Source of the DNA: a virus | Reading direction: 5' to 3' (one strand) | Virus record (IMG/VR): IMGVR_UViG_3300048008_000449 | Span: 124,001 to 188,000 of that record | DNA length: 64,000 nucleotides | In this document: piece by piece, positions 1 to 63,890 of the stretch | Layout: each line of letters starts with the position of its first letter | Numbering within the stretch: position 1 is the stretch's first letter | The notes under the pieces: generated by a model | What the model saw: only the letters and a program-made list of their open reading frames with translations | What the model was told of the DNA's origin: nothing | Databases searched by the model: none | Position numbers and translations under genes: made by a program

Positions 1-97
1 AAAACCCATTTACGAAAGGATTATTATTATCGTGTACTAACCATCCTATTGAAATTTTTTTGTTTTCTTTTAATAATTGATCTAACTGTTTACGCAT
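1..97 (-). CDS. Partial protein, N-terminal 32 residues only
   Basis: An ATG at 95-97 opens a minus-strand frame that runs off the window start without a stop. The visible part contains a KKISIGWLVHDNN stretch. This resembles the N-terminal SKELGFGWLYNNS and SNELCIGWLYNNN segments of the two large paralogues at 48.5-51.4 kb, so it may be a third, diverged member. That is inferred from about ten residues only. It starts 3 nt after the stop of the neighbouring gene, which fits an operon. Confidence 0.5.
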   Translation of the reverse strand, partial: MRKQLDQLLKENKKISIGWLVHDNNNPFVNGF

Positions 98-10027: not shown

Positions 10028-10030
10028 ATA

Positions 10031-10288: not shown

Positions 10289-11415
10289 TATAAACTCATT
10301 CCTGAAAATGTATCTTCTGATACGTCTTTTTTAACACCGCCAATAACATAACTACTAATTTCTGTTTCTTGAGGTGCTACTTGTACTTCTGCTCCACTAA
10401 TCCATTTAGCTGTCCATGGTAGTGGATTTGCTTGTGGTGTTGTGTATGGACATTTCATTCCTAATGCTGTCATACGTTTACAACAGATCCATTCAATATA
10501 ATCATGTAATAGTTGTGCATTAAGACCAATCATACTACCGTCTTTAAATAGATAGTTAGCCCATTCTTTTTCTTGCTCAACTGCATCAACAAACATTTGT
10601 GATACTTCTTCTTTACATTCTTCTTGAATCTTAGCAAAGTCTGGATCTTCTTTTGTTAATACTTTTGAAAGTAAATATTGTGTACTTGCTAAGTGAACAT
10701 TTTCATCACGTGCAATAAATTTAATAATTTTAGCATTACCTTCCATTTTCTTTAATTCTGCGAATGCCCAAGAGCAAGCAAAACTAACATAGAAACGAAT
10801 GCCTTCTAATACGTTAACACTATTTGCACACATCCAAATTTTCTTCTTTAGATCATACATATTAATTTCAACTGTTTTATTATTAACTTTATGTGTTCCT
10901 TCACCTAACAATTGATAGTACTGTGAATATTCAATAAGGTCATTGTAATATTTAGAAATGTCATCTGCACATTCTACAATTTCTTTACTATCTGCTAATT
11001 CATCAAATACTATTGTAGGATTATTATAGATATTACGAATAATATGTGTATAGCTACGTGAGTGAATTGTTTCACTGAATGTCCATGTGATAATCCAGTT
11101 TTCAAGTTCTGGTAAGCTAGTAATAGGACCAAATGCTTCAACAGGTGCTCTACCTTGTACACTATCTAAAAGTATCTGTCTTTTAAGATTACTTGTAAAA
11201 ATGTGCTGTTCGTGATCAGTTAGATCTTTAAAATCTTTTGAATCTTTACTTACATCAACTTCTTCAGGTCTCCAAAAGAAACCTAATTGTTTATCTGTAA
11301 GTTTATCAAACTGTTTATACTTAACAGTATCGTATCGCTGAAATCCAAGATCTCCATCTAGAAATGCATTTGCTTCAGTATGGTATTTTTCGTTATTTAC
11401 GTTTAATATTGACAT
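10288..11415 (-). CDS. nrdB: Ribonucleotide reductase class Ia, beta subunit
   Basis: 375 aa, matching E. coli/T4 NrdB length. Diiron-site segments are intact: LLDSVQGRAP (Asp ligand), SETIHSRSYTHI (Glu and His ligands and the radical Tyr), LEGIRFYVSFACSWAFAE (Glu ligand) and ARDENVHLASTQ (Glu and His ligands). The C-terminus is acidic/hydrophobic, as needed for binding NrdA. It makes deoxynucleotides for phage replication. AAGGA precedes the ATG, and it follows nrdA by 12 nt. Confidence 0.96.
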   Translation of the reverse strand: MSILNVNNEKYHTEANAFLDGDLGFQRYDTVKYKQFDKLTDKQLGFFWRPEEVDVSKDSKDFKDLTDHEQHIFTSNLKRQILLDSVQGRAPVEAFGPITSLPELENWIITWTFSETIHSRSYTHIIRNIYNNPTIVFDELADSKEIVECADDISKYYNDLIEYSQYYQLLGEGTHKVNNKTVEINMYDLKKKIWMCANSVNVLEGIRFYVSFACSWAFAELKKMEGNAKIIKFIARDENVHLASTQYLLSKVLTKEDPDFAKIQEECKEEVSQMFVDAVEQEKEWANYLFKDGSMIGLNAQLLHDYIEWICCKRMTALGMKCPYTTPQANPLPWTAKWISGAEVQVAPQETEISSYVIGGVKKDVSEDTFSGMSL

Positions 11416-11427
11416 GTTGTTTAATCC

Positions 11428-13752
11428 TTATATCACACAACTTTCGCAGTAGTCGTCATACTCTTCGTCCGTGCTAAATTCTTCTCTACCAAGCATCTGC
11501 TCAGCATTCTTCTTATCAAAGTCAATTTCACCTTGACCATCATATGTGTTAAAATAGTATAATTGTTTTCCACCGTACTTGTAAAACATTACAAGATGTT
11601 GTAGCATAACACTCATTGGAATCTTTTCTTCTTCATAAAATTCCGGGTTGTAGCTTGTATTTACACTAATACCTTGATCAATATATTTTTGTAATACTGC
11701 CATAATTTTTAAATATCCTTCTGGGCTTTTTTGACCCCATAACAGATCGTATTTATTCTTTAACCTAGGATAACCAGGCACAACTTGTTTTAGTACTCCA
11801 TGTTTGCTTTGTTTAACACTTACAAATGCACGTGGTGGTTCAATACCATTAGTACTGTTACTAATTTGTGCTGATGTTTCAGCAGGCATTAATGCCATTA
11901 ATGTACTGTTACGTATTCCTGTTTTTTGTAACTGTTTACGCAGACTTTTCCAAGGCATACGTTCTTTATGTGGAACTAACTCATCTAGTTCTTTTTTGTA
12001 TGTTTGGTTAGGTGTAATACCTTGTCCATATTTTGTTTCGTTAATTCCTGAAATATTACCTTTTTCAATTGCTAAATCTGCACTTGCTTTAATTAAGTAA
12101 TAACTCCATGCTTCTGTCCATGTGTCAACTAATGCTAATCCTTTTTTATCAATATCTTGATAATTTAAATCATTCTTAGCCAACCAATATGCAAAGTTAA
12201 TAATACCAATACCTAATGGACGTCTTTTCATTGTACTAAGTTCTGCCGCTAATACTGGATAATTTTGATAATCCAATAGCTCGTCTAAGCCACGTACTGC
12301 TAATCTACATATACGTTCAAAGTCCTCAGGTGTTCTAACGTTACCCCAATTAATCGCACTTAATGTACATAAACTAATTTCACCTTCTTCATCATTAAAC
12401 GAAGAAAGAGGTTTTGTAGGTAAATTAATTTCACAACACAAATTGCTTTGTTTTACTGGTGCAACTTCTTCTAAAAATGCTCCATGTGTATTTGCATGAT
12501 CTACATTTTGTAAATAAATTCTTCCTGTGTTTTTACGTTCTTCCATAAACATACCAAACAATTCAGATGCTGGTAGTACTTTTTTCCTAGTAACTGTTCT
12601 TTCTGCATTCTCATATAATTCTTTAAATTTATCTTGATCGTTAAAAAATGCCTCATATAATCCAGGAACATCACTAGGTGAGAAAAGTGTAATGTCTTTA
12701 CCAGTTAATAGACGTTCGTACATAAGTTTATTAAATTGTACACCATAGTCCATATGTCTAACACGATTATCTTCTGTGCCTTTATTGTTCTTTAATACTA
12801 ATAGTTCTTCTGCTTCTAAGTGCCAAATTGGATAGTATAGTGTTGCCGCTCCACCACGAACGCCACCTTGGCTACATGATTTAACTGCACTTTGAAATAA
12901 TTTATAAAATGGAATAACACCTGTATGTGTTGCATCGCCTCGTCTAATAGGACTTCCTATTGAACGAATACTACCTGCTCCAATTCCAATACCTGCTTTT
13001 TGGCTAACATATTTTACAACACTAGCACTTGTAGCATTAATACTATCTAAGCTATCATCTGTTTCGATTAATACACAACTACTAAATTGTCTTTGAGGTG
13101 TTCTAAGTCCTGCCATAATAGGTGTAGGTAAACTAATATCAAAGTTACTAATAGCATCATAATATTCTTTTACATATTTCATTCTAGTTTCTTTTGGATA
13201 CGAACTAAACAATGTAGCTGAAATCATCATATATGCAATCTGTGGAGTTTCAAATATTTGTCCTGTTACTCTATTCTGAGCTAGATACTTACCACGGAAT
13301 TGTTCCATTCCAACGTAAGAAATATTTTCATCACGATCATGTTTAATGTAACTGTTTAATTGATCAATTTCTTCTTCTGTATAAACGGAGAAAAAACTTT
13401 CGTCGTATATTCCTAGTTCAACATTCTTACGTGCAATATCACTTAGATGATCTGGATCAAATGAATTGTAAACGTTTTTTCTTAGATGATAATTGATTAA
13501 TCTACCTGCTACCCATTGATAATTTGGTGTTTGTTCGTTAATAAGATCGGCTGCGGCTTTGATTAATGTTTCTTGTATATTTGTACTTTCAATTCCATCA
13601 TAAAACTGTAAATGACTTTTAATTTCTACTTCACTAGCACTAACACCGGTAATACCTTCACATGCGTAAAATACAACTTTGTGCATTTTTTCTAAATCAA
13701 GTACTTCTGTAGTACCATCTCTTTTTATAATTTCTATTTGATCTTTGCTCAT
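11428..13752 (-). CDS. nrdA: Ribonucleotide reductase class Ia, alpha subunit
   Basis: 774 aa. An N-terminal ATP-cone domain (IIKRDGTTEVLDLEKMHKVV) is followed by the ten-stranded catalytic barrel. Recognisable features are SSCVLIETDDS with an active-site Cys, CCEINLPTKP with the loop Cys pair near residues 445-446, the LCTLSAINWG segment and PAETSAQISNSTNGIEPP. The tail ends CESCVI, the mobile cysteine pair reduced by glutaredoxin. Together with nrdB and the glutaredoxin gene it forms a complete class Ia operon. Confidence 0.96.
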   Translation of the reverse strand: MSKDQIEIIKRDGTTEVLDLEKMHKVVFYACEGITGVSASEVEIKSHLQFYDGIESTNIQETLIKAAADLINEQTPNYQWVAGRLINYHLRKNVYNSFDPDHLSDIARKNVELGIYDESFFSVYTEEEIDQLNSYIKHDRDENISYVGMEQFRGKYLAQNRVTGQIFETPQIAYMMISATLFSSYPKETRMKYVKEYYDAISNFDISLPTPIMAGLRTPQRQFSSCVLIETDDSLDSINATSASVVKYVSQKAGIGIGAGSIRSIGSPIRRGDATHTGVIPFYKLFQSAVKSCSQGGVRGGAATLYYPIWHLEAEELLVLKNNKGTEDNRVRHMDYGVQFNKLMYERLLTGKDITLFSPSDVPGLYEAFFNDQDKFKELYENAERTVTRKKVLPASELFGMFMEERKNTGRIYLQNVDHANTHGAFLEEVAPVKQSNLCCEINLPTKPLSSFNDEEGEISLCTLSAINWGNVRTPEDFERICRLAVRGLDELLDYQNYPVLAAELSTMKRRPLGIGIINFAYWLAKNDLNYQDIDKKGLALVDTWTEAWSYYLIKASADLAIEKGNISGINETKYGQGITPNQTYKKELDELVPHKERMPWKSLRKQLQKTGIRNSTLMALMPAETSAQISNSTNGIEPPRAFVSVKQSKHGVLKQVVPGYPRLKNKYDLLWGQKSPEGYLKIMAVLQKYIDQGISVNTSYNPEFYEEEKIPMSVMLQHLVMFYKYGGKQLYYFNTYDGQGEIDFDKKNAEQMLGREEFSTDEEYDDYCESCVI

Positions 13753-44417: not shown

Positions 44418-45083
44418 TTAGTTACGGCTACAATCAACACCTTTACGGTCGCCCGCTGGGTGTGAGTATGGTAGCACATCAAGTAACCATTTTACTGTTT
44501 CTTCACGCTTGTCGTCATCGAGACTTAGTGCCGCACTTAAATGATATACTCCGTCAACAAAAGAAAATCCATAATGAACTTTTCTTGTGTTAATTGCGTA
44601 CCATCTACGTGCTTCTGGTTTAAAAATTTTACCATCTACAACAAAATGAAATTCTGCTGAGTTAGTGTGGTTTAAGTGACAAATCATTCTAAATGAATCA
44701 CCTGTGATTCCGTCTGGAGTAACTTGTCTCCATTTATCTCTGTGAGGAGCTAAGAAATCACCTTTATCGTATATTAATGAACCCAATGATTCAGTGTGTT
44801 CTGGTATGTTCCATGATTCTGGAATTACATTATATTCGTATCCTGCTTTAGGACCGTTATAATCATCGTTCACACGTGAACGTAGGATTTTTGATGGATC
44901 AGCATTTAGTGTGTCAATTTGTTCAATTGCATTATCTGGCACCCATGCATCTAGTTCGATGATGTCGCCTGCTGCGCCAAAAAGAAAATTAGTATCAAAT
45001 TTCATGCTAGTAGTTACTTCAGGGTTAAATCTGTGTTCACTCATGTTAGTAGCAATGATTTTAGCTTGTTCTAGTTTTACCAT
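44418..45083 (-). CDS. AspH-like 2OG/Fe(II) oxygenase, 221 aa
   Basis: FLAPHRDKWRQ near residue 112 has the H-x-D ligands. SFRMICHLNHTNSAEFHFVVDGK near 129-151 is the oxoglutarate-binding strand pair. RRWYAINTRKVHYGFSFVDGVYHL near 158-181 carries the distal His. The ends are charged. Substrate unknown; aspartyl/asparaginyl side chains or small molecules are family substrates. It has its own late promoter. Confidence 0.75.
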   Translation of the reverse strand: MVKLEQAKIIATNMSEHRFNPEVTTSMKFDTNFLFGAAGDIIELDAWVPDNAIEQIDTLNADPSKILRSRVNDDYNGPKAGYEYNVIPESWNIPEHTESLGSLIYDKGDFLAPHRDKWRQVTPDGITGDSFRMICHLNHTNSAEFHFVVDGKIFKPEARRWYAINTRKVHYGFSFVDGVYHLSAALSLDDDKREETVKWLLDVLPYSHPAGDRKGVDCSRN

Positions 45084-47744: not shown

Positions 47745-48527
47745 TTAGCCTTTAATTTCAGCTAAAAGCTGATCAAAACTTTCACATAGAATGTTTTCAA
47801 AATTATCACCCCAATGACCGTGAATAATCATATGAATTCTGTTTTCTGTACCAGTATTATGAACAGAATGCAATCTACCTATATCGATTGCTCTAGCATC
47901 ACCTGGTTCCCAAGGTACCATTCCTGCATCTTGCATGCAAAACTTTACTCCTGGTGGATTACTAAGTGCTACGTTAAAGGCTGCTAAGTGTCTTTCTTTA
48001 TAATCTAGATGTGGACTAATAAATCCACCCGGTTCTAGTAACATAAATCTAACTCTTTGATATTTTTTAAAAGGCCAGTGATTTTTAAGCCAATTAACTG
48101 TTACTGGGCACTTGTCTGCGATTTCTGTCCAACCAAATTCTGGTGCTTCGTCTTCTTTCCAAGCACCTTCTTCAACATAGTAATCATTGGGTTGTGTTTT
48201 ATCCCATCCTTGACCATGTACAACTATACTGCTCCAACCGGGATTTATATCGCCTCGGTGTTTTACATACTCACCTAAAAATTGCTCTGCTTCTTTTGCC
48301 ATTTGGTAGTATGGTACATCTAATTGCATTTTTAATGTAGGACAATTAGCTTGTTTCATTATCCATCTAGAGTATGGTATTTTTTGTTTTTTATCTGTTT
48401 TCCAATTTAAGAATTCTTCAGGAGGTAATGCCATATTTTCATAGTGAGAAATATCGCCATTCTCTTCAAAAAACTTTGTTACTTTTGCTAATTGTCTAAT
48501 TCTTATTTCTTCTTTGTCTTGTTCCAT
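47745..48527 (-). CDS. AspH-like 2OG/Fe(II) oxygenase, 260 aa
   Basis: The C-terminal catalytic half: RVRFMLLEPGGFISPHLDYKERHLAAFNVALSN near 158-190 gives H-x-D (HLD). WEPGDARAIDIGRLHSVHNTGTENRIHMIIHG near 207-238 gives the distal His and the oxoglutarate Arg. The N-terminal 150 residues are a less clear helical region (YSRWIMKQANCPTLKMQLDVPY). It overlaps the end of the 483-aa paralogue gene by 25 nt, so the three genes form one unit. Confidence 0.78.
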   Translation of the reverse strand: MEQDKEEIRIRQLAKVTKFFEENGDISHYENMALPPEEFLNWKTDKKQKIPYSRWIMKQANCPTLKMQLDVPYYQMAKEAEQFLGEYVKHRGDINPGWSSIVVHGQGWDKTQPNDYYVEEGAWKEDEAPEFGWTEIADKCPVTVNWLKNHWPFKKYQRVRFMLLEPGGFISPHLDYKERHLAAFNVALSNPPGVKFCMQDAGMVPWEPGDARAIDIGRLHSVHNTGTENRIHMIIHGHWGDNFENILCESFDQLLAEIKG

Positions 48528-49954
48528 TTAAATAACTTTCCTATATTCCACGGTGCAATTTTATCCCACTCTGGCATTCTATCAATGTGATGTTGTATCC
48601 AATTATATCCACCAGCTTCTGTAGCTGGACAAGTTGAGTACACTAACATATCGTTATCACTGTTATAATTATATTTATATATAGCATGTAATAATTCTCT
48701 ATGGATTTTATATCTTTCTTCTAATGTATACCATTTAGCTGTAACTTCATAATGAAATATATTACTTAGGTGTACATAGGTTGATCCTTGTCTCTGTGGT
48801 CGACATTTTATTGCAAATTTATCATGCTTATGTGTATTAAGCAAATTCTGATGATAATAATTTATGTTTAGTTTTGGAAATACTGTGCGATACCATTCTA
48901 GAAATCCTTCTTTATATATTTCATCTAGATGTTCTTCTGTATATTTTATTTGCTTAATACCTTTGAAGTATTCAAATTTACTATCATACTTTCCTACTCT
49001 ACTATCCATAAAGTTATTTGCAAACTGCGTAAAGTTAGTTCCATCCCATTCTTCAATTATCTGTTGCATACACCCTAGTGCATGTCTACTTACATCATAT
49101 ATCCATAATGTATCACCTTCTACTAATCCTTTGTCAAATGCAAAGAATATAGGAGATATTCCAGATGCTGGAGCAACTACTTTAGTAAATTTCTTAACTG
49201 GTGTGTCTTTTGGTGGTACAACATTTCTTCCATTTTCTGTATTAGCTATAAAGAAAATGTTTGGATTTGAAATTGTTAATGTTTCATGTATATTTCTAAA
49301 ACCGTCTTGCTTAACTTCACCATATGTATAACCTTTTGATGACCTTACATCTTCATTCCATGATATTATTTTGTGATTATCTCTTAGAAGGTGTTCTATT
49401 ATATTCCACCCGCCTTGTTTTCCTGTATATGTTCTTAAATTATTACCAGGTCCTATCCAATATGGTGTATATCCATCATGATGATTGTTTTCACTACGTA
49501 TTGGTTCTGGAAGTTGATATGGTTCAACATTATCTTCATGATTACCCCACTCTGGCTTACCTGCTGACTGCCACCATTCTAAGTCAATTAAAAAACATTG
49601 TGGATGTATTGAATAATAATCATCTCCTTTATCTAATACATGTCCAATAAGTTTAGCATCTATATTTTCTTCGTAAAATTTAGGAAATCTTTCTTCAAAG
49701 TCGTGTAATATAACACCCTGTTTAAATACAACCATCTTTTTAAAACCATTGCTAAGTGCTTTTTCAAATAAATCTACAATTTTTTCTTCTGCATATTGTT
49801 TATTACAAAAGAATGATAATTCTATAGACCAAAAGTCAAGTGTTGCTTTTGAAAAATGCGTTAAATAGTCAGACTTTATATTATTATTGTAAAGCCAACC
49901 TATACATAATTCATTGCTTTCAGTTTTTTGTCTCCACCAATCTTTTTTAAACAT
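48503..49954 (-). CDS. Large unknown protein, paralogue 1, 483 aa
   Basis: Paralogue of the next gene upstream along its whole length. N-terminal part: CIGWLYNNNIK, then KKMVVFKQGVILHDFEERFPKFYEENIDAKLIGHVLDKGDDYYSIHPQCFLIDLEWW, which looks like a glycosyltransferase-type sugar-nucleotide fold. Second part: TKVVAPASGISPIFFAFDKGLVEGDTLWIYDVSRHALGCMQQIIEEWDGTNF (positions about 255-306), which reads like a Rossmann-type methyltransferase with a glycine-containing motif I and an acidic YDVS. Function unknown. A two-domain transferase is my best reading. Confidence 0.6.
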   Translation of the reverse strand: MFKKDWWRQKTESNELCIGWLYNNNIKSDYLTHFSKATLDFWSIELSFFCNKQYAEEKIVDLFEKALSNGFKKMVVFKQGVILHDFEERFPKFYEENIDAKLIGHVLDKGDDYYSIHPQCFLIDLEWWQSAGKPEWGNHEDNVEPYQLPEPIRSENNHHDGYTPYWIGPGNNLRTYTGKQGGWNIIEHLLRDNHKIISWNEDVRSSKGYTYGEVKQDGFRNIHETLTISNPNIFFIANTENGRNVVPPKDTPVKKFTKVVAPASGISPIFFAFDKGLVEGDTLWIYDVSRHALGCMQQIIEEWDGTNFTQFANNFMDSRVGKYDSKFEYFKGIKQIKYTEEHLDEIYKEGFLEWYRTVFPKLNINYYHQNLLNTHKHDKFAIKCRPQRQGSTYVHLSNIFHYEVTAKWYTLEERYKIHRELLHAIYKYNYNSDNDMLVYSTCPATEAGGYNWIQHHIDRMPEWDKIAPWNIGKLFKWNKTKKK

Positions 49955-51413
49955 TTTTATTCCACTTTAATAACTTCTGTAAGTAATTATCAGGAATTTC
50001 TGTAAATTTATCCATTTCTTGTTTATCAATCCATACTAGATTTGGATGTGTAAGAGTTCCACGTGATGATAACACTAAAACGTTATTCTGATATGAGCTA
50101 TCTTTAATCTTGCCCATTAATTCATTATGTAATTCCCATCGTTGCTGTAAACTATAATAAAACGAAGTAGGTAAGTAATGAAATATGTTACTTAGATAAC
50201 AAAATGTTATTGGATGACGTAATCTATCTGTTTTAAAAGAATTAACAAATCCTTGATATGTATTTGGATCAAAAATGTTAATTGGCAAATAAACTACTTC
50301 AATCTCTGGTAATACTTCAGTTATCCATTTTTGAAATCCACGTTCATTTAATTTATCAAATACTTCTTGTGTATGTGGTAACTTATTTTTTCCTCTAAAT
50401 ATATCTCTTTGGTATTTTTCATCTGGTGCTAATTTATTCATTAAGTCAGTAGCAAATTTTTCGTAATTAGTACCGTCCCATTGTTCAATAATTGTTTTTG
50501 TAATATTAATAGCAAATTTACTAATATCGTAAACAAGTATCTTACTGTATTTGTCACATCCTAGTTCAAATGCATATATTAATGGTGTTAATCCTGCGGC
50601 CGGTACAACTAGTGTATCCCATTTTTCGTCCCATTCTGGATATTGTAATTTTCTTCTTTCAACTTCAAGATGAATATCTCTCAATGGCTCAGTATTAGCA
50701 ATAAAGAATATGTCTAAATCAATCTGTTCCATAACACCTGATAAATGTCTTGGTCCATCTTCTTTTACTTCTGGATAAGAATAATGTTTCTCATCTCTAA
50801 TATTTTTATTCCACGATAGAATTCGTTGTTGGTCATCTAATAAAGACTTTACTAAATTCCAACCTGTATGTTTTGCATTATATGTTTTAGTATTTTTACC
50901 TGGTCCAATCCAATGAGGGGTATAATCATCATGCCAATTTGATATACTTCTAGCAGGTTCAATTGTTTCTAATGATTTAGCTTCTGGTGAACCCCAAGCT
51001 GGCTTGCCTGCTTTTACCCACCATTCAACATCAAGCATAAATGCTTGTGGATGTAAAGAATAATATTCATCGCCTTTATCAACTATATGTCCAATAAATG
51101 TTGCATCTTTATTTTCTTCATAAAATTTTACAAACTGTTCTTTAAAATTAGATAAAGGAGTTGTTCCTTGTTTGAACACTAATATCTTTTTATATTTCTT
51201 CTCAACTGCATCTTCTAACAAACCTTCTATAGTATCATTGGCCATTTGTTCGTGGAAATAGAATCCCAATTCCATTGACCAATAATCTGTTAAGTTTTTA
51301 GTGTATCCTCGAGCGAAGTCATCTTTAATGCTATTGTTATATAGCCAGCCAAACCCTAATTCTTTTGATTTACTTTTATGTTGCCACCATTGATGCCCAA
51401 ACATGTTTAACAT
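49947..51413 (-). CDS. Large unknown protein, paralogue 2, 488 aa
   Basis: Same architecture as the 483-aa neighbour: FGWLYNNSIKDDFARGY, KKILVFKQGTTPLSNFKEQFVKFYEENKDATFIGHIVDKGDEYYSLHPQAFMLDVEWW, VDTHWIGPGKN-type segment (PHWIGPGKNTKTYNAKHTGWN), then TLVVPAAGLTPLIYAFELGCDKYSKILVYDISKFAINITKTIIEQWDGTNY. The high similarity points to a recent tandem duplication. AAGGA and a late promoter lie before it, and the end overlaps paralogue 1 by 8 nt. No certain function. Confidence 0.6.
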   Translation of the reverse strand: MLNMFGHQWWQHKSKSKELGFGWLYNNSIKDDFARGYTKNLTDYWSMELGFYFHEQMANDTIEGLLEDAVEKKYKKILVFKQGTTPLSNFKEQFVKFYEENKDATFIGHIVDKGDEYYSLHPQAFMLDVEWWVKAGKPAWGSPEAKSLETIEPARSISNWHDDYTPHWIGPGKNTKTYNAKHTGWNLVKSLLDDQQRILSWNKNIRDEKHYSYPEVKEDGPRHLSGVMEQIDLDIFFIANTEPLRDIHLEVERRKLQYPEWDEKWDTLVVPAAGLTPLIYAFELGCDKYSKILVYDISKFAINITKTIIEQWDGTNYEKFATDLMNKLAPDEKYQRDIFRGKNKLPHTQEVFDKLNERGFQKWITEVLPEIEVVYLPINIFDPNTYQGFVNSFKTDRLRHPITFCYLSNIFHYLPTSFYYSLQQRWELHNELMGKIKDSSYQNNVLVLSSRGTLTHPNLVWIDKQEMDKFTEIPDNYLQKLLKWNKNV

Positions 51414-52080: not shown

Positions 52081-52109
52081 ATTATAGTGGGTTTTTAATT
52101 ATTTGTCAA
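52081..52109 (-). promoter_or_regulatory. Host sigma70-type promoter, leaderless (gp1)
   Basis: TTGACA at 52104-52109, 17-nt spacer, TATAAT at 52081-52086, then 6 nt (AAATTT) and ATG. It overlaps the end of the 211-aa oxygenase gene. Confidence 0.8.
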
Positions 52110-52734
52110 TAACAAAGTTATTGTTTCTAAGTTTTTCAACTACGTCTTCAAACTTCTCACCTAATACTTTAATTCTTAGGTAAATTCTTTCTCTTTTAAT
52201 AGTAGGTACACCGTGTACAGTCATTCCATTAAATAATGTAGGGTGCTTATTGCTATAGTAGTGATTATATTCAATATCTAAATCATTCCATCCATATTTC
52301 TTTTCATAGTTAACATTTCTTTCTGGGGTAACTCCAACTCTACTATAAAAACTAATTGGTTCGCCTGCATCTTCTGGCATAATAGGAAACATTATTCCAC
52401 ACCACATGTAATGATCAGTATGAGGGTGAAAGCTATAACCTGGATCGTAATGTAATAAATCAATGTCACGTGGAGCAATAGGTTGTTTGAAGTTAAACAT
52501 ATTAACGTATTTTTCTATTACTGGATAATCAAGTAAGTTTTTGCCTTCAGTTTTTTGTACTGCAATAGCGTTCATACCTGTTCTGCCTTTGAACTCTCTC
52601 TTTTCTGGAGAAAGGTATTGCATATAATCTCCAAATTGCATTATATTATGTTTATGTTGATTTACAAAATCTAATAGTTCTAACCTATCGTATGTTACTT
52701 CGTCGATAGTACAGTGGTGATTACCAAGTTGCAT
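52099..52734 (-). CDS. 2OG/Fe(II)-oxygenase-like protein, 211 aa
   Basis: IDLLHYDPGYSFHPHTDHYMWCGIMFPI near residues 91-118 holds H-x-D (HTD). NKHPTLFNGMTVHGVPTIKRERIYLRIKV near 164-192 gives the distal His and the C-terminal Arg. This is the prolyl-hydroxylase/Fe2OG type. It follows the neck gene by 3 nt and precedes gp1. Substrate unknown. Confidence 0.72.
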   Translation of the reverse strand: MQLGNHHCTIDEVTYDRLELLDFVNQHKHNIMQFGDYMQYLSPEKREFKGRTGMNAIAVQKTEGKNLLDYPVIEKYVNMFNFKQPIAPRDIDLLHYDPGYSFHPHTDHYMWCGIMFPIMPEDAGEPISFYSRVGVTPERNVNYEKKYGWNDLDIEYNHYYSNKHPTLFNGMTVHGVPTIKRERIYLRIKVLGEKFEDVVEKLRNNNFVIDK

Positions 52735-54237: not shown

Positions 54238-55530
54238 TTATTTATTAAATGTTGCTAGTAGTATAACTTCGCCGTTTACTCGACCGTTTAGTTTAGTTTC
54301 TGTTGTCTTTAATGTTTCGAACAACTTTTCTGTTTTAGATCTTGTAGCTTTTTTAACTTCTGGTAAGAATTCAGCAGGTTTACGAACAGTACGTTGTACA
54401 CTTTTGTCTTCATCGTAACCTATTATAGTAGTTCCTTTAACACTTAGTCCACTACCTTCACGTTTTAATCCCATAGGATCTACATTCTTAGCATAATACA
54501 TTCCTATCTTACGGTTCTTAGTGTTAAAAACCACCAGTATTCGGGCGTAAACAATATCTGCTGGTGTTATGCTACCTAAACCATAATCAGTGTCTGTTTG
54601 CTTAAATTTGAGCTTCTTAACAATATCTTCTGGACTCTTTGTACGAGTCTTACGTGGCTTACGATTTGCTTTACTTTCTGCTTCAACAATATCACATGCA
54701 TCTACTATTTTACGATATACTTCTAATAGTGCTTTTTTCTGTTGAGCATTAAGGTGATTATATCCTTCTTCTAATTGTTCACGCCAGTCATCAATTTTAT
54801 CTTTAGGAATTTTAGTATTAAGTTCTGTGTATTCTTCTAATCCGTGAATATACCCTTTACGTATAATACGTGCATGAGCTTGCTTAACACCTGCTCTACG
54901 AAACATCTCAACTGGAGCAAAGTCTTTTACAAATTTTAAATCATAACCTGAGTTAACCCAGTCGTCTAAAAATTGTTCAACTTCATCAGTCATTTGCATT
55001 GCGGCTTTATGAAGCAAATCTTGTATTGTAGGTTTATATACATTCGCTGTTCGTTTAGCTTCTGCTTCTGCTAATTTTTCAGCTTCTTCTACAAACGTTG
55101 AACCTTCTTCAATTGCATTAGTAATACGTGATTTAATATATGTAGAAATTGGCTGAGGTGTACCGCCTGTACCAGGAAGACTTTCCCAATATGCATTCCA
55201 TGCTAGGTGTATATCAGGACAACCCATTGTAAGCATACGACAGTAATATCCTGTTACTGCACTAAGTGATTGGCTTTTTGCTGCCTTTACACATTTAATA
55301 TCTTTTTTTGTATAATCATTTGCAAGCATCCAATCATATGCATACTCAACTAAATCGCTTGCTTTATAATTACGATAATAATATTCAGTTGCATGTTGTC
55401 TTTTAACATGATATTCTTTACCAGACCAACCGTCTGCACCCTCCCATGAAGGATCTTGTAATGAACCTTTACGGATTCGTTGTGAAGGTGCTCTTGCTTT
55501 TTTCTTTTTAGTAGCTTTGGGTAATGCCAT
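54238..55530 (-). CDS. Conserved T4-like phage protein, 430 aa
   Basis: A basic N-terminus (PKATKKKKARAPSQRIRKGSLQ) precedes a helical body (YNYKASDLVEYAYDWM, LNAQQKKALLEVYRKIVDACDIVEAESKANRKPRKTRTKS at about 238-277) and a C-terminal beta domain (ITPADIVYARILVVFNTKNRKIGMYYAKN, then SGLSVKGTTIIGYDEDKSVQRTVRKP). The family is conserved in T4-like marine phages and unassigned. A DNA-binding function fits the charge. It is an early gene behind the promoter at 55699-55727. Confidence 0.7.
   Translation of the reverse strand: MALPKATKKKKARAPSQRIRKGSLQDPSWEGADGWSGKEYHVKRQHATEYYYRNYKASDLVEYAYDWMLANDYTKKDIKCVKAAKSQSLSAVTGYYCRMLTMGCPDIHLAWNAYWESLPGTGGTPQPISTYIKSRITNAIEEGSTFVEEAEKLAEAEAKRTANVYKPTIQDLLHKAAMQMTDEVEQFLDDWVNSGYDLKFVKDFAPVEMFRRAGVKQAHARIIRKGYIHGLEEYTELNTKIPKDKIDDWREQLEEGYNHLNAQQKKALLEVYRKIVDACDIVEAESKANRKPRKTRTKSPEDIVKKLKFKQTDTDYGLGSITPADIVYARILVVFNTKNRKIGMYYAKNVDPMGLKREGSGLSVKGTTIIGYDEDKSVQRTVRKPAEFLPEVKKATRSKTEKLFETLKTTETKLNGRVNGEVILLATFNK
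54239..54246 (-). promoter_or_regulatory. Late-type promoter (AATAAATA), leaderless
   Basis: AATAAATA, then ATTGC and the ATG of the 239-aa gene. It overlaps the stop of the 430-aa gene. Confidence 0.5.
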
Positions 55531-55533
55531 TGC

Positions 55534-55671
55534 TTATACTCCGTGATAATCTTCGAACATATGACGATCTAGTTCGTCTGCTTTATTTTGATACTTATCA
55601 ATTAAAGACAAAACTTCGTCGGTTTGAGGTAATTTTTTTAATTCTTCGATGAATTCTAACAACTCCATCAT
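55534..55671 (-). CDS. Small acidic helical protein, 45 aa
   Basis: Two adjacent ATGs at 55666-55671 with AGGAG about 10 nt upstream. The product is helical and acidic (MELLEFIEELKKLPQ, EVLSLIDKYQNKADELDRHMFEDY). It is the first gene behind the host-type promoter at 55699-55727 and precedes the 430-aa gene by 3 nt. Its size is small but the ribosome site and position support it. Confidence 0.6.
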   Translation of the reverse strand: MMELLEFIEELKKLPQTDEVLSLIDKYQNKADELDRHMFEDYHGV

Positions 55672-55698
55672 AGTATGATTACTCCTGTGAATGTTCTA

Positions 55699-55727
55699 AG
55701 TATACGGCTTCTAGTTTATAGTGTCAA
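55699..55727 (-). promoter_or_regulatory. Host sigma70-type promoter
   Basis: TTGACA at 55722-55727, 17-nt spacer, TATACT at 55699-55704. It drives the 45-aa and 430-aa genes and overlaps the end of the 119-aa gene. Confidence 0.78.
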
Positions 55728-56070
55728 CCGGTTTGAATCCAAAATTAGCAACTACATGTTGAGAACCCGATGAATCTTCAACAATATCTCCAACACTAAC
55801 ACTATACATACGAGATAAACGTTCTATATTTTCTTCAGGACCCATGTTACCTGTGTGAAACACGCCTTCTAATCCATCAGCGGTAATGTTACTAACATGT
55901 GTATAGTAGCCTCGGTTAAAAGCATCAGCGGCAACTGTACCAATTTCATTTTTACTAAAGTTCATGTCTAGCTTTAATGATTGTTTATGAACAGCATCGT
56001 GTCCTTCAGCATTAACTAGATCTATTTCGGCATCTGTTAAATGAATTTGGTATAATTTATATGTTTGCAT
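55711..56070 (-). CDS. Conserved T4-like phage protein, 119 aa
   Basis: The pattern YKLYQIHLTDAEIDLVNAEGHDAVHKQSLKLDMNF, then ADAFNRGYYTHVSNITADGLEGVFHTGNMGPEENIERLSRMYSVSVGDIV, is strongly conserved in T4-like marine phages. A small alpha/beta protein of unknown function. It is an early gene with a host-type promoter carrying the shared dyad element. Confidence 0.8.
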   Translation of the reverse strand: MQTYKLYQIHLTDAEIDLVNAEGHDAVHKQSLKLDMNFSKNEIGTVAADAFNRGYYTHVSNITADGLEGVFHTGNMGPEENIERLSRMYSVSVGDIVEDSSGSQHVVANFGFKPVDTIN

Positions 56071-56183: not shown

Positions 56184-57389
56184 TTATTTTGATTTATAGT
56201 GAATTAATTTGTCATAATATAGTGCTAAAGTAGCCCATATTGCGTCTGGGTACAAGTTAGTATATTTGTTTCCCATTTTATGATAATTTTCCCATACTGT
56301 TTTACTTACATCAAACTTACTGTAATATTTCCAAAAATCAGTATCTGTTCTATCACTTAACATGTAATGATGTTTTATATATGTACTATTATCATTCCAA
56401 ACATTACGCATTGCTCTATTGTAAGTTTTAGCCCCATATCCACGTTTTAAGCACCGTACAAGCGTTGTTATACTGAATTGCGTCATAAACAGTGCATTAC
56501 TTTCTAAAGGGTCTATAAAGCCGTTACTGAGCCCTACTGCAACTACATTATTGTGCCAGGGATTAGCTAAGACACTAGGATTCCATTTTAACAGTCTAGG
56601 TGTTTTTCCCATAAAGGGAGTTCTGTGTGCATTTACTTTATTAAACTCTGCAAGTGCATCTTCGTCAGTTTGATGTTTGCTACTAAACACATATCCTGTT
56701 CCAATTCTATTTGTTAAATCAATTATAAATTGCCAACCATTACTACGTGCTACGCTTTGAGTGTATCCTTGTACATCATTATCTTGCAATTCAAAAGGAC
56801 AAACCCATGCTCTATCTACTAAATGATTTTCTAATTGTACTTCAGTATTGTCTTTTACAAATTTTCTACGAAACCCTGTGCAGTCTATATATAAATCATA
56901 TCCCTCTGGTAACTCGTCTAATGTGTCTATAATGTGAGTTACATTTTTACAATTATTTTTAACTATGTCTCCGGCTTTTTCAGCATCTAAGTGATATGCA
57001 GTTGCTTGCCAGCCACCTTTGTGATATAGTTGATCATTAATGTTATGCTTATCAACAATACCACTATCGTATTGTTGTTTCCATTTATCAAAAACATTAT
57101 TATCATTAAACCAAAAGGTGAATGCAAACGGATCGCCATTTGGCTTATTCCATTGACTCTTTATGTTTCCAAATTTCTTTTGTGCATTACTTTTTTCCAT
57201 CCATTCGTCTTCTGACATTCCCATGTCTTCAAAGAATTGTGCAATCTGTGGTAATGTACTTTCGCCTACGCCTATAATAGGAATATCACTACTTTCAATA
57301 AGTGTAATATCATAATCTGGAAATTGTTTTTCTAAGTATCCTGCGGCCCACCATCCAGTAGTTCCGCCTCCAATAATACAAATTTTCAT
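56184..57389 (-). CDS. Flavin-dependent halogenase-like protein
   Basis: 401 aa, shorter than tryptophan halogenases (about 500-540). The FAD-binding IIGGGTTGWWAA is at residues 5-16, GVGESTLPQ at 40-48, and the family lysine context NAQKKF-GNIKSQW near 68-80 keeps a Lys at the catalytic position (K72). GFIDPLESNAL near 303-313 matches the active-site PLES motif. The WxWxIP signature is altered to WQFIID, so halogenation is uncertain and another flavin-monooxygenase reaction is possible. No flavin reductase gene adjoins it, though an FNR gene occurs at 2.3 kb. It has its own late promoter. Confidence 0.75.
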   Translation of the reverse strand: MKICIIGGGTTGWWAAGYLEKQFPDYDITLIESSDIPIIGVGESTLPQIAQFFEDMGMSEDEWMEKSNAQKKFGNIKSQWNKPNGDPFAFTFWFNDNNVFDKWKQQYDSGIVDKHNINDQLYHKGGWQATAYHLDAEKAGDIVKNNCKNVTHIIDTLDELPEGYDLYIDCTGFRRKFVKDNTEVQLENHLVDRAWVCPFELQDNDVQGYTQSVARSNGWQFIIDLTNRIGTGYVFSSKHQTDEDALAEFNKVNAHRTPFMGKTPRLLKWNPSVLANPWHNNVVAVGLSNGFIDPLESNALFMTQFSITTLVRCLKRGYGAKTYNRAMRNVWNDNSTYIKHHYMLSDRTDTDFWKYYSKFDVSKTVWENYHKMGNKYTNLYPDAIWATLALYYDKLIHYKSK

Positions 57390-57452: not shown

Positions 57453-58424
57453 TTATTTTTCTTCAATTAGTCTTTCAAACTCTCTCAAACGTTTATATAC
57501 GCTTGCTAGTTCAATAATAGTAGGCCATGCTTTAAGTATATATTGCATTGAACCTTCTACTCTACCAAAAGCTCTAATAATTTGTTGCATCACACCTAGT
57601 GTTACAACACCTGCTACAATAGCTGGTGCTAAAAATACATAAGCTGATAATACATTTGCTTGTAAATATGAAATTCTACCTATATTAAAATACAAGTATC
57701 TAATATAAGATTTAAAGTGAATACTTCTTACATCTTGAAATAATTCATCAATTCTTTTAGGACGAATTGTCACATCATCTTCTGCAATTACAAGTATTTT
57801 TCTGTAAGCTGCTTCTTTCTTTTGTAAATCATATTCTACTCCAACTAGACGTAATAACCAACCTAATCCAATTAAGAATATTGTTCCTCCAATACTCCAA
57901 ATTAACGCACCAGTTACTAGTCCATATTGCCAATCACCAAAGAAGAAGATTGGAATACCAACTGATAGTCCTAATAGAATAGGAACAAATTGTACTAGAA
58001 CCATTACTGATTCAATTAAACTTGTACCAAGTCCTTCCATGATACGACTAAACTTAATAGTATCTTCTTGTACACGTTGAGCTGCACCTTCAATAGTACG
58101 TGCTTTGTCGTATACACTATGATACCATTCAACCATTGCTGCTCTCCATCTAAACAAATAGTGTGCAGTAAAGTAACTAACAACTACGGCAATCAAAACA
58201 TAAATTGCAGCCAAGTAAATAAAAGTTCCTAAACTACTCCAATATTCTGTAATTGTAATAGCGTTTGGTGCACCAAGTGCTTTTTGAATCATATCGTAAA
58301 ACTGCCCAAACCATTCATTAATTTTAACGTCAATTTGAACTTGTACCCATAATGAACTTAGGATAATAGCTGAACCCAGCCACGACCACAATGCCCATTG
58401 TTTTTGTGTGAAAAATCTAAACAT
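57453..58424 (-). CDS. SbmA/BacA-like inner-membrane transporter
   Basis: 323 aa with about six to eight membrane helices (WALWSWLGSAIILSSLWVQV, FIYLAAIYVLIAVVVSYFTAHYLFRW, VPILLGLSVGIPIFFF, GALIWSIGGTIFLIGLGWLL, AYVFLAPAIVAGVVTLGVM). The family motif YLFRWRAAM followed by TIEGAAQRVQEDTIKFSRIME near 85-125 is clear. SbmA proteins import peptides and thiazole compounds using the proton gradient. It is shorter than E. coli SbmA (406). It sits next to the halogenase, each with its own late promoter. Confidence 0.83.
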   Translation of the reverse strand: MFRFFTQKQWALWSWLGSAIILSSLWVQVQIDVKINEWFGQFYDMIQKALGAPNAITITEYWSSLGTFIYLAAIYVLIAVVVSYFTAHYLFRWRAAMVEWYHSVYDKARTIEGAAQRVQEDTIKFSRIMEGLGTSLIESVMVLVQFVPILLGLSVGIPIFFFGDWQYGLVTGALIWSIGGTIFLIGLGWLLRLVGVEYDLQKKEAAYRKILVIAEDDVTIRPKRIDELFQDVRSIHFKSYIRYLYFNIGRISYLQANVLSAYVFLAPAIVAGVVTLGVMQQIIRAFGRVEGSMQYILKAWPTIIELASVYKRLREFERLIEEK

Positions 58425-61000: not shown

Positions 61001-61431
61001 TAATAGCAAGTGGTTGTTTATTTTTAAGCACAGACACAGGAAGAATAATGCTTCAACAACGAAGCGGTGAAGTTAATCACCCACGAACATGGGGTTTCTT
61101 TGGAGGCAAGGCTGAAAAAGGTGAAAGACCAACTGAAGCACTATTGCGTGAAATAGAAGAAGAGCTTGGATTAGTTCCAGATATAAAAAAAGTTATTCCT
61201 GTTAATAAATTTACTAGTCCTAATAAGAAATTTGTTTACCATACATTTTTAGTCACAGTTGAAGAGGAGTTTATTCCTGTTCTTAATAACGAAAGTGATG
61301 GTTATTGCTGGATTAAAATTGGCAACTGGCCTAGACCGTTGCACCCTGGTGCAAAAATACAATGTAATTCAAAACAGTTTGTTAAAAAAATAAAAACAGT
61401 ATACGAACAGTTTACTACATCGCTGGATTAA
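60997..61431 (+). CDS. Nudix hydrolase
   Basis: 144 aa from ATG 60997 with AGGAA before it; a TTG 15 nt upstream is less likely. The complete Nudix box lies at about residues 37-59 (GKAEKGE, x7, REIEEELGL). It hydrolyses nucleoside diphosphates linked to another group, such as oxidised dNTPs or ADP-ribose; the substrate cannot be told. It is the last gene of the plus-strand block, and its end overlaps the convergent sulfotransferase-like gene by 17 nt. Confidence 0.92.
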   Translation: MIIASGCLFLSTDTGRIMLQQRSGEVNHPRTWGFFGGKAEKGERPTEALLREIEEELGLVPDIKKVIPVNKFTSPNKKFVYHTFLVTVEEEFIPVLNNESDGYCWIKIGNWPRPLHPGAKIQCNSKQFVKKIKTVYEQFTTSLD

Positions 61432-62131
61432 TAATACCCATTTCTTTTCTACTGAATATATTATTTAAAAATGAATTAAATACTTCTTCACTATCATATT
61501 GATGAATATCACTAAAATCTGGATCAATTTCATACATTTCAGAATTTGTTCTCATGCTATGTGAGAAACCCAATGCAGTTGCAGTTTCTTTCCAACCATA
61601 ATAACGTTTTAAATTAAAATTATTTTTTATTTCATTACATTCTATAGTAATTTGTTGTAGCATTCTTTCGTCATTTTTATACCAAGTATATATTGGATAT
61701 GTAATATCCCACCCACCTACATGTTTCCACCAATTAAAGCATTCTTGTGGTGTATCATAAAAAGACCAAAACCTTGCTTTTGGAAATAGTTGTTTTAATA
61801 ATGGCAAATGATAGCTAAACCAATGACTTTTAATAATTTTAGTTCCATAATTCCAATCAGTAAATGGTGCTTTAAATTCTTGTATTATTTCTTCTTTAGT
61901 TAATGTATCTAATATATCAAACTTATGTCCTACTGGATTATCAGGACCCCAATAAGCACCTCGATGCCATCCAACAACTTGTCCGTCAACTTTTTTTCTA
62001 TATACAAAGTTATTCTTATTATCAGACAAATTAATATCTTTACATATAAGACTAAGCATACGAATTGCTCCACTCCATCTAGATCCTGGAGCTCCTGTAA
62101 CTATAATTAAATCTTCACCTTGATATTCCAT
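61415..62131 (-). CDS. Sulfotransferase-like protein, 238 aa
   Basis: LIIVTGAPGSRWSGAIRML at 8-26 is a P-loop-like PAPS-binding segment with the GAPGSRWS pattern. KIIKSHWFSYHLPLLKQLFPKARFWSFYDTPQECFNWWKHVGGWD near 97-141 corresponds to the KSH strand and second PAPS-binding region, though the usual Arg-Ser are changed to Tyr-Asp. A short segment near 186-205 is the usual C-terminal strand. A small-molecule or glycan sulfotransferase role is likely. Substrate unknown. Confidence 0.65.
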   Translation of the reverse strand: MEYQGEDLIIVTGAPGSRWSGAIRMLSLICKDINLSDNKNNFVYRKKVDGQVVGWHRGAYWGPDNPVGHKFDILDTLTKEEIIQEFKAPFTDWNYGTKIIKSHWFSYHLPLLKQLFPKARFWSFYDTPQECFNWWKHVGGWDITYPIYTWYKNDERMLQQITIECNEIKNNFNLKRYYGWKETATALGFSHSMRTNSEMYEIDPDFSDIHQYDSEEVFNSFLNNIFSRKEMGIINPAM

Positions 62132-62940
62132 TAGTTTCCTTTATTAATTTCTTTTAAAATTTTGTTTGTAAGGTATTCATGTGTCTTAGGTCCTGGGTGT
62201 GTTTGGTCTCTTCCTAAATCTATCATTTCTTCTTTACTGTACTGTATTGATTTAATGTGTGTTGGTTCATAATCATAAAACCAATGCTTTCTTCTTTCGT
62301 TTGGTTCTAATATATAATACTGTGCATTTGGAAATGATTGTAGTAACGCTAGTTCAAACATTTTAAATATTTTACCATTGCTTTGTTTAAAAGTTTCTCT
62401 AACAAGTTTTCTAACTTTTTCATCTTTTTCTTTTCTTAACCAAAATCGCATAAGCCAATTAGTATCATTAACACCCCAAAAATCAGTAAGTATAACATAT
62501 TTTGGATTAAGTTTAAAATCAAATAGATTATCTGCCATATCAGTTAATGTATCAAAATCACTTATATTAAAATGATTTAATGATAATTTTTTAGAAAGCA
62601 AATATGGTATACTCATTTCATATGGTATTCCAGTTCCTAATAATAAACTTCCGCCGGCAAATACTATACCAACATCAGTTAAATCATCTGGACCTCTATA
62701 TCCATATTTGTTCCATTTATAACTAAAGTCTAAATTAGTATCATTATCCCAATCAAGTTCTTGTATTGCATTAAAAGTAAAATGATCAGTTCCATTTTCT
62801 CCTACTTTGCATTTGTTTCCTGTATCATGCCGGCCATAATATTTTATTGTTTCATTTGGCAATCTTGGCTGTTTTTCAGCTTTTTCTTTTTGATTATAAA
62901 AGAACTTTGGATCTACCTCAGGAAAGTCGTTTTCTATCAT
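62131..62940 (-). CDS. SGNH/GDSL-like hydrolase, 269 aa
   Basis: IVFAGGSLLLGTGIP near residues 90-104 is block I with the nucleophilic Ser (GGS in place of GDS). VILTDFWGVNDTNW near 149-162 supplies the Asn of block III. RDQTHPGPKTHEYLTNKI near 247-264 is block V with Asp-x-x-His. Ester hydrolysis of sugars or lipids is expected. Its stop overlaps the sulfotransferase-like gene start (1 nt), so they share a unit. Confidence 0.75.
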   Translation of the reverse strand: MIENDFPEVDPKFFYNQKEKAEKQPRLPNETIKYYGRHDTGNKCKVGENGTDHFTFNAIQELDWDNDTNLDFSYKWNKYGYRGPDDLTDVGIVFAGGSLLLGTGIPYEMSIPYLLSKKLSLNHFNISDFDTLTDMADNLFDFKLNPKYVILTDFWGVNDTNWLMRFWLRKEKDEKVRKLVRETFKQSNGKIFKMFELALLQSFPNAQYYILEPNERRKHWFYDYEPTHIKSIQYSKEEMIDLGRDQTHPGPKTHEYLTNKILKEINKGN

Positions 62941-63890
62941 ACTTTAATAACTCTATTAGGATCTGGATTATCAATCATGTGTTGTACTTTATCATTAATG
63001 AATCCAGTAAATTGGAAAGTAACTCTTGGTGTATATCCAAAGTTAGCTGTTCCATGTGGCATATTACACCAATCGTATGTTATACATTCGCCTGCTTTAT
63101 ACTGATGATAATATGTATTACCAAATTGCCATACATGTCCATAATCCCAATCTTGTAGCATAACTAAAAACCTTCTTAATTTTAAAGGATTTTTATCAGC
63201 GCCAGCTTTAGTCCATACTTCACGCCATCCTGGTCTTGCATATCTCATTTGTTGATCAATATGAATAGGAGTAACTTGTCCTAGTCTTTGAATATGTAAT
63301 CTGGATTGATGAACATCTACTCCTAATGCATCTATCATTCTAAGTAGTATTGCATACTCTGGTGATTCATTACGCTTTGCGAAATAGTTTTTTCCATCTT
63401 TATCAAATCTTGCTCTAACAACCATGTCATGATACATACTACTTACGTCTTCTTTACCAGAAGCAAGTAGAACGTCTTGTATTTCTCCGTCATGTAAATC
63501 TTTATCTTGTTTACTTAGATTACGCTGTCTATAATTTCCTATAGTCATTTCTGTTGCAGTTTTTAGTGCATGCTGTACTGCTTCACTAAAATCTCCTTCA
63601 AATCTACAAGGTACTACAAATGTTTCTTCATGTGGATCAGCAAAAGTATCAAAGTGCCAATCGGCACGTAATTTATTATGCTCCCATCTGCTTGGAACTC
63701 CATCTACTTTAAAAATGTTATCCATTTTGTCATGTTTTTCCATCTGTTCATTACTATACATTTCATCTTTATATGCTGAATCAATTTGGGTATTACCTTC
63801 TTGATGTTTATGTTCTGCTTTTTTAACTGCATCTACAAGGTCATCTATTTTATCGCCACTATAATAATTTTTATCTGTTTTTTGTTTCAT
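62937..63890 (-). CDS. 2OG/Fe(II)-oxygenase-like protein, 317 aa
   Basis: The catalytic core is in the C-terminal half: LHIQRLGQVTPIHIDQQ near residues 198-214 (H-x-D), LRRFLVMLQDWDYGHVWQFGN near 239-259, AGECITYDWCNMPHGTANFGYTPRVTFQFTGF near 267-298 (distal His and 2OG Arg). The N-terminal 180 residues are a charged helical region. It is the first gene of the 61.4-63.9 kb group and overlaps the SGNH gene by 4 nt. Confidence 0.72.
   Translation of the reverse strand: MKQKTDKNYYSGDKIDDLVDAVKKAEHKHQEGNTQIDSAYKDEMYSNEQMEKHDKMDNIFKVDGVPSRWEHNKLRADWHFDTFADPHEETFVVPCRFEGDFSEAVQHALKTATEMTIGNYRQRNLSKQDKDLHDGEIQDVLLASGKEDVSSMYHDMVVRARFDKDGKNYFAKRNESPEYAILLRMIDALGVDVHQSRLHIQRLGQVTPIHIDQQMRYARPGWREVWTKAGADKNPLKLRRFLVMLQDWDYGHVWQFGNTYYHQYKAGECITYDWCNMPHGTANFGYTPRVTFQFTGFINDKVQHMIDNPDPNRVIKV

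Follow-up and report, generated by a model that had tools for sequence, protein, structure and literature searches.

To which family do two large tandem genes of a large marine phage belong, and in which process do their products take part? The genes, hereafter paralogues A and B, lie in a 64,000-nucleotide stretch of DNA (the window; positions 124,001 to 188,000 of IMG/VR virus record IMGVR_UViG_3300048008_000449) and overlap by 8 bp (Table 1). The initial annotation described them as full-length tandem paralogues, and their comparison bears this out: the proteins align from end to end with 194 of 492 positions identical (39%) and 303 of 492 similar (E = 1e-128), and the motifs quoted at the time (GWLYNN, FKQG, IGHxxDKGD, HPQ, WIGPG, YDxS and EEWDGTN) are found. 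Measured against close orthologues, dN/dS amounts to 0.04 for B and 0.14 for A, from which it follows that both are functional, constrained genes under purifying selection.

Table 1. Features of the locus; positions are those of the window unless stated otherwise.
Feature	Position	Strand	Basis or remark
PF05118 Asp/Asn beta-hydroxylase (2OG/Fe), partner	47745..48527	-	Pfam Asp_Arg_Hydrox, E 5.8e-11
Paralogue A, 483 aa, GT-A-like/MTase-like family	48503..49954	-	ORF; copy adjoining the hydroxylase
Paralogue B, 488 aa, GT-A-like/MTase-like protein	49947..51413	-	ORF, AlphaFold2 model, Foldseek
B residues 1-228, predicted GT-A-like half	50730..51413	-	Foldseek matches to GT-A enzymes (PDB, BFVD)
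B residues 229-488, predicted class I MTase-like half	49950..50729	-	Structure predicted for the homologous half in paralogue F; AviRa
KQG (residues 81-83 of B), degenerate counterpart of the GT-A DXD	51165..51173	-	33-sequence comparison
HDDYTP (residues 161-166 of B), motif conserved in the N-half	50916..50933	-	D162 31/33, Y164 31/33, P166 29/33, H161 27/33
B D296, expected SAM-ribose-binding Asp, end of strand 2	50526..50528	-	Invariant, 33/33
Flavin-dependent (tryptophan) halogenase	56184..57389	-	PF04820, E 1.1e-72
SbmA/BacA-like peptide transporter	57453..58424	-	PF05992, E 2.1e-138
Paralogue D, 5' end	1..97	-	Full gene runs outside the window: G000:C1:122997-124097, 366 aa
Family copies (record positions)	9649-10926, 10926-12326, 102094-103452, 122997-124097, 172503-173954, 173947-175413		

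A possible third copy had also been suspected at the window edge. Followed beyond the window start, this gene (paralogue D) proved to be a complete ORF, divergent and homologous to the family (combined profile E 4.7e-66), but the count was too low, since the 204,772-bp record contains six copies in total. Paralogue D is without the GHxxD/HPQ/HDDYTP region, and the HDDYTP motif is likewise missing from paralogue E.

Searches of Pfam, NCBIfam and PHROGs with A, B and 24 family members returned nothing above cut-off, and thus no match to a single-domain family, which would have refuted the initial annotation; ProRS-C_2, retrieved below cut-off (E 8e-4) for three of the 24 members, was taken as a chance match. 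Profile HMMs run against PDB sequences gave nothing meaningful for the family, a PADLOC search for anti-phage defence proteins, run on A/B and a few relatives, matched neither A nor B nor the hydroxylase, and tblastn of six family members found no match among 50,697 deposited phage genomes, in which a tail sheath used as positive control matched 2,613 records. Uncultured viral loci with a family member number at least 181, and among 291 genomes sampled from the bacterial phylum Bdellovibrionota 12 carry one, the bacterial relatives being recovered by patterns derived from paralogue F and none by patterns derived from A/B. It is an undescribed, widespread and unnamed family.

An AlphaFold2 model of paralogue B (pLDDT 84.4, pTM 0.80) matched both GT-A enzymes and class I methyltransferases when submitted in full to Foldseek. 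The PDB matches of GT-A type were POMGnT1 (E 3.4e-4 to 5e-4, prob 0.95-0.97), LH3 and PBCV-1 A64R, with low global TM-scores because the alignments span both domains, and AviRa was the top match of the full-length protein. The C-terminal half of paralogue F, modelled alone (pLDDT 90.8, pTM 0.88), retrieved class I SAM methyltransferases (INMT, NNMT, PNMT, EgtD, T4Dam), which account for almost all of the 50 best PDB matches (prob up to 0.98); these similarities are distant, with TM-scores of 0.3-0.46 (best TMq 0.41-0.46) and a Foldseek E of only 3e-3. The models place the predicted fold of the N-terminal half with GT-A and that of the C-terminal half with class I methyltransferases. The split into two halves proposed in the initial annotation is borne out, while the nucleotide-sugar binding suggested for the first half is not supported, a D-x-D motif occurring in none of the 33 family representatives used for residue conservation counts (third position Gly in 31, Asp in 2). 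For this reason, the family is not filed as a glycosyltransferase, and its GT-A half may be non-catalytic. In the second half of B, the motif I region keeps a single conserved Gly (G274, 30/33, often within P-A-[AS]-G) and the canonical GxGxG is absent, which, together with the low TM-scores and the weak E-value, means that this half could bind another ligand. N409 is near-invariant (32/33), and R206, K209 and Y213 are further conserved candidate catalytic residues. Comparison by hhalign revealed no relation between the N-half and a neighbouring DAD-motif GT-like family, nor between the C-half and a neighbouring MTase-like family.

The strongest clue to the role of the family is its partnership with a hydroxylase. 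Directly downstream of A, and overlapping it by 25 bp, lies a gene whose product is, as judged from its sequence, a bona fide PF05118 member (42.9 bits against a Pfam cut-off of 22.6), the HxD...H...R signature of Fe-binding residues and Arg being invariant in 59 distinct relatives. When the family was clustered at 60% identity, a PF05118 gene overlapped, adjoined or was fused to the family gene in 19 of 31 clusters, or in 23 when the leading gene of a tandem pair is also included; overlaps typically span 9-88 bp, and paralogues C and D have no adjoining hydroxylase. Fusions of the two occur in phages and bacteria and in both domain orders, and at a single locus (L154) a flavin halogenase, a PF05118 domain and a family member are joined in one polypeptide. 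The degenerate DXD, the missing canonical motif I and these fusions to catalytic partners could mean that the family has no catalytic function and serves the hydroxylase and radical SAM enzymes as a scaffold or a substrate-binding chaperone. However, the invariant SAM-ribose Asp, N409 and the conserved HDDYTP point to an active site that has been kept, and we consider such a passive role unlikely.

Radical SAM enzymes are the second recurrent association. In the phage, paralogues E and F are located inside a radical SAM gene cluster that also includes an amidinotransferase and an aminotransferase, and the virus record contains 16 radical SAM ORFs. The neighbouring radical SAM enzymes tested are mostly of the N-twitch type and match NCBIfam NF033640 above its curated cut-off, a name valid at family level only; the literature searched contained no report of such proteins being coupled with the new family. 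Matches of the amidinotransferase include HsvA, SxtG and an inosamine-phosphate amidinotransferase, all of them natural-product enzymes, and the grouping of radical SAM/SPASM or twitch, amidinotransferase, aminotransferase and halogenase genes, as seen in listings of ORFs of at least 60-120 aa, resembles natural-product gene clusters for RiPPs or small molecules. The halogenase is located with A/B, outside the radical SAM cluster. The E/F cluster has reciprocal best hits, ten in the sampled bacterial clusters, to a chromosomal cluster of ~29 kb in bacteria related to the predatory Bdellovibrio group (Bdellovibrionota), which comprises four family genes, two hydroxylases and many radical SAM genes, with housekeeping genes on its flanks. 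That the bacterial cluster is a prophage was rejected: one flank carries leucine-catabolism genes and the opposite flank genes that resemble those for sigma factors, primases and deaminases, as named by eye from their translations. In none of the loci fetched does a radical SAM gene lie closer than 6 kb to A/B. In the regions examined of Vibrio jumbo phages K566, VS1 and D479, radical SAM genes are shared, but neither the family nor the hydroxylase was found.

The halogenase was found in eight of ten A/B loci, as was the SbmA/BacA-like transporter, which occurs in no other family locus, and both are possible co-components of an A/B cassette; a related halogenase forms part of the L154 fusion. 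A dNMP kinase gene, 28 bp upstream of B, is present in nine of the ten A/B loci and suggests a reading in which hydroxylase, GT-like and MTase-like enzymes hypermodify DNA or a nucleotide supplied by this kinase. Outside A/B loci, however, the kinase occurs only at L020 and is missing from the bacterial chromosomal clusters, and PF05118 enzymes are not known to hydroxylate nucleobases, which makes this explanation very improbable. The A/B-hydroxylase operon also lies among tail genes, directly adjoining that for the tail sheath both here and in relatives, and PF05118 enzymes are able to hydroxylate Asp/Asn in proteins, so that virion proteins such as those of the tail sheath or baseplate come to mind as targets; yet E/F and the bacterial clusters are far from virion genes, and we give this idea little credence.

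The initial annotation had linked duplication of the genes to selection, possibly for surface modification. Selection is supported by the dN/dS values, whereas the surface role is not, the conserved partners being radical SAM/twitch enzymes and the PF05118 hydroxylase, and not capsule, LPS, sugar-nucleotide or polysaccharide export genes. A and B might still be active metal-independent glycosyltransferase-methyltransferases of host or virion surface sugars: metal-independent GT-A enzymes exist, a GT-A-like half is predicted by Foldseek, and GT-like, SGNH-like and amidotransferase-like genes are found close to some relatives. Considering the DXD-less representatives, these steadiest partners and the lack of relation to the DAD-type GT-like family, we regard surface glycan tailoring as rather unlikely.

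Our best explanation, proposed tentatively, is that A and B are tandem members of an undescribed family of tailoring enzymes acting with the PF05118 hydroxylase in a specialised modification pathway. Each protein would combine a GT-A-like domain devoid of the DXD metal motif with a class I SAM-methyltransferase-like domain. The hydroxylase would place a hydroxyl on the substrate, most likely a peptide or an amino-acid-derived scaffold, the GT-A-like half may bind this substrate, or else a sugar or nucleotide attached to it, and the SAM domain may transfer a methyl, or another group derived from SAM, to the hydroxyl so formed or to a site close by. The tandem pairs A/B and E/F could provide two specificities, one member of the pair being docked to the hydroxylase; A/B would belong to the cassette with halogenase and SbmA, and E/F to the cluster with radical SAM enzymes and amidinotransferase. 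Somewhat more speculatively, the PF05118 hydroxylase, the GT-A/MTase-like family and N-twitch radical SAM enzymes, with optional halogenase or amidinotransferase, may form a new pathway that makes or modifies a heavily tailored peptide or small molecule and is shared by large marine phages of the T4 type with chromosomes of the phylum of predatory bacteria. If so, phages carry a complete natural-product-like biosynthetic cluster; multi-step tailoring pathways are known from few phages, and VirX1 is the known halogenase of a marine phage. The A/B pair leads to an unnamed widespread family and to a gene cluster occupying about one tenth of the phage genome. The L154 fusion puts the substrate within reach of direct tests on a small set of proteins that can be expressed, and the parallel bacterial cluster offers a second, possibly easier system.

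Among known systems, the collagen lysyl hydroxylase/glycosyltransferase LH3 (PLOD3) and mimivirus R699 share the GT-A fold with the family in Foldseek PDB comparisons, and LH3 joins it to a 2-oxoglutarate hydroxylase, so that hydroxylation is followed by group transfer within one polypeptide. In contrast, the hydroxylase here belongs to PF05118 and not to the lysyl/prolyl family, the new family lacks DXD and carries an added MTase-like domain, and profile HMMs detected no similarity to LH3 or R699 among PDB sequences. With the NNMT/INMT/PNMT-type class I methyltransferases, AviRa and EgtD, it shares a predicted Rossmann-like fold and the Asp at the end of strand 2, but differs by the absence of GxGxG, an N-terminal GT-A-like fusion, TM-scores below 0.5 and the lack of an HMM match among PDB sequences. 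Unlike known PF05118 members, the partner hydroxylase is coupled or fused to the new family, a halogenase and radical SAM clusters. A T4-like marine virus genome of ~183 kb, TARA_ERS488813_N000010, is reported to encode 12 radical SAM genes, interpreted there as Fe-S metabolism; the passages found mention neither the new family nor its hydroxylase partner nor the bacterial cluster (PMC5332604). Full-length structural homologues (E down to 5.9e-32) are present in BFVD as uncharacterised proteins of uncultured Caudovirales (A0A6J7WK42, A0A6J7WH01 and A0A6J5KYS8).

Genes A and B share homology along their entire length (39% identity, E 1e-128), which confirms the initial annotation of tandem full-length paralogues, and the possible third copy at the window edge proved genuine: gene D, once completed beyond the window, is homologous to A/B, without their central motif block. 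The record extends this observation: outside the window it carries three further copies, C, E and F (see table). In the phylogenetic tree, A to D group in a single clade (support 100/99), E and F each fall in a separate clade (100/100 and 100/99), and every copy except D is accompanied there by orthologues of its own from other viruses; relatives of D came from searches instead. From these clades and the separate orthologues of the copies, A/B and E/F represent two separate, old tandem duplications. Against close orthologues, gene B has a dN/dS of 0.04 and gene A one of 0.14.

The window covers positions 124001-188000 of a 204,772-bp virus record, whose tail sheath resembles those of T4-superfamily jumbo phages, among them PA5oct, Phosso and Atu_ph07 (37-40% identity). 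No family member was found by tblastn among 50,697 deposited phage genomes. Relatives are encoded in at least 181 viral loci, and 12 of the 291 genomes sampled from Bdellovibrionota, the phylum of the Halobacteriovoraceae bacterium G017, carry the family. Grouped at 60% identity, the members fetched give about 31 clusters; these counts are drawn from fragmentary contigs. As far as searched, the family and its coupling to its partners are new.

The two halves initially read as a nucleotide-sugar-binding region and a Rossmann methyltransferase are supported as folds. The AlphaFold2 model of B (24-sequence alignment; pLDDT 84.4, pTM 0.80) matched first, using Foldseek against the PDB, the rRNA methyltransferase AviRa (E 3.4e-4, prob 1.00), together with the GT-A enzymes POMGnT1 (E 3.4e-4, prob 0.97), LH3 and PBCV-1 A64R, and NNMT/INMT-type methyltransferases. 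The C-half of F, modelled alone (pLDDT 90.8, pTM 0.88), matched INMT, NNMT, PNMT, EgtD and T4Dam (best E 3.5e-3, prob 0.98, TMq 0.41-0.46). We conclude that the predicted N-half is GT-A-like and the C-half class I methyltransferase-like, both matches being distant. The family is not assigned to the glycosyltransferases because the DXD motif is missing: its position reads x-x-G in 31 of 33 sequences, T-P-D in two and D-x-D in none. The N-half conserves HDDYTP; in the C-half (B numbering), D296 is invariant, G274 is found in 30/33 and N409 in 32/33.

Unbiased clustering of ORFs within 6 kb of family genes (114 loci) placed PF05118 hydroxylases in the commonest neighbour component (95 loci), with radical SAM genes next (79 and 69 loci); these counts, taken from fragmentary contigs, are biased by the mainly F-type patterns used for fetching. 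Because the hydroxylase component was linked to a second, 317-342-aa family as well, a dedicated profile was used to recount the hydroxylases: one lies adjacent to (same strand, <300 bp, usually overlapping) or is fused with 94 of 143 family ORFs, which represent 19 of 31 clusters. The remaining clusters are mostly the upstream gene of a tandem pair, or C and D types. Fusions place the hydroxylase before the family protein (L142, L159, L162; bacterial L169-L171), after it (bacterial L086), or before a halogenase and the family protein (L154, 1167 aa); L160 fuses the family to a B12-binding domain. The Fe-binding and Arg residues of the hydroxylase are invariant. In 12 loci, from both phages and bacteria, the unnamed 317-342-aa family is found next to the new family or fused to it. 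A GT-like family that conserves a D-[AG]-D motif also occurs in the vicinity of family loci, with 73 ORFs from 42 loci.

Because the constant unit is a hydroxylase plus a GT-A/methyltransferase-like protein, the simplest reading is sequential tailoring: the hydroxylase would hydroxylate a substrate, which the GT-A/methyltransferase-like protein would then recognise, transferring a SAM-derived group onto it. The transfer of a methyl is inferred; the GT-A half may be a binding module only. LH3, one of the structural matches, likewise hydroxylates and then transfers, using an unrelated hydroxylase and unrelated donor chemistry. Candidate target classes are peptides, small molecules, virion proteins and glycans.

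In eight of the ten A/B loci there is also a Trp-halogenase-like gene together with an SbmA/BacA-like transporter; L011 and L018, which account for the remaining two, are short contigs. The transporter is rare in phages, matching 4 of 50,697 deposited records, two of them records of 2.7 and 7.5 kb. Surface modification by A/B, as initially suggested, is a hypothesis. By eye, the WxWxIP-like motif of the window halogenase reads WQFIID, and the halogenase domain fused in L154/L153 retains a regular WIWK-type motif.

Coordinates of family members and associated features (G000:C1, full record; L, fetched loci)
Feature	Location	Strand	Remark
A	window 48503-49954	-	483 aa; 8-bp overlap with B
B	window 49947-51413	-	488 aa; tandem with A
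C	G000:C1:102094-103452		
E	G000:C1:9649-10926		
F	G000:C1:10926-12326		
PF05118 hydroxylase	window 47745-48527	-	overlaps A
Flavin-dependent halogenase	window 56184-57389	-	
SbmA/BacA-like peptide transporter	window 57453-58424	-	PF05992, E 2e-138
Possible 2-oxoglutarate-oxygenase-like ORFs	window 52099-52734, 44418-45083, 62937-63890	-	H-x-D...H by eye; no Pfam match
Sulfotransferase-like ORF	window 61415-62131	-	by eye
SGNH-hydrolase-like ORF	window 62131-62940	-	by eye
Radical SAM ORFs	G000:C1:1-25000 (L077, L081), 54405-55742, 67027-69409, 95429-97973		
317-342-aa family	L159:8127-9152, L160:8010-9038, L162:8373-9341, L085:11272-12225		no Pfam match
317-342-aa family as domain	L184:5758-8211		C-terminus
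D-[AG]-D GT-like family	L101:11471-12175, L131:4160-5083 and relatives		no Pfam match

E and F sit alongside at least 11 radical SAM ORFs in the record's first 25 kb; the whole 205-kb record has 16 by profile, most in this one cluster, and those tested are mostly of the N-twitch type (NF033640). The cluster also holds an amidinotransferase whose relatives include HsvA and SxtG (E 4.9e-25), an aminotransferase-like gene and a second PF05118 hydroxylase. A chromosomal cluster of the bacterial genome G293 (C1:~745-775 kb) combines more than 12 radical SAM genes, four family genes and two hydroxylases with an amidinotransferase (45% identity to that of the phage) and an aminotransferase-like gene (40%). 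We rejected reading it as a prophage because translations of its flanks, judged by eye, look like housekeeping genes: leucine catabolism to one side, and sigma factor, primase and tRNA deaminase to the other. Between the phage cluster and the bacterial clusters sampled, ten phage proteins form reciprocal best hits, mainly with G293. The company of radical SAM, amidinotransferase and aminotransferase genes here, and of the halogenase in the A/B loci, favours a natural-product-like scaffold as target. Twelve radical SAM genes were described earlier in a T4-like marine virus genome of 183 kb and interpreted there as Fe-S metabolism (PMC5332604). The phage radical SAM cluster contains nitroreductase-like genes too. 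A 240-aa radical SAM protein at L077 17777-18499 (+) scored 62.7 bits over its first half against viperin models (curated cut-off 180) and is probably a split radical SAM protein rather than a viperin.
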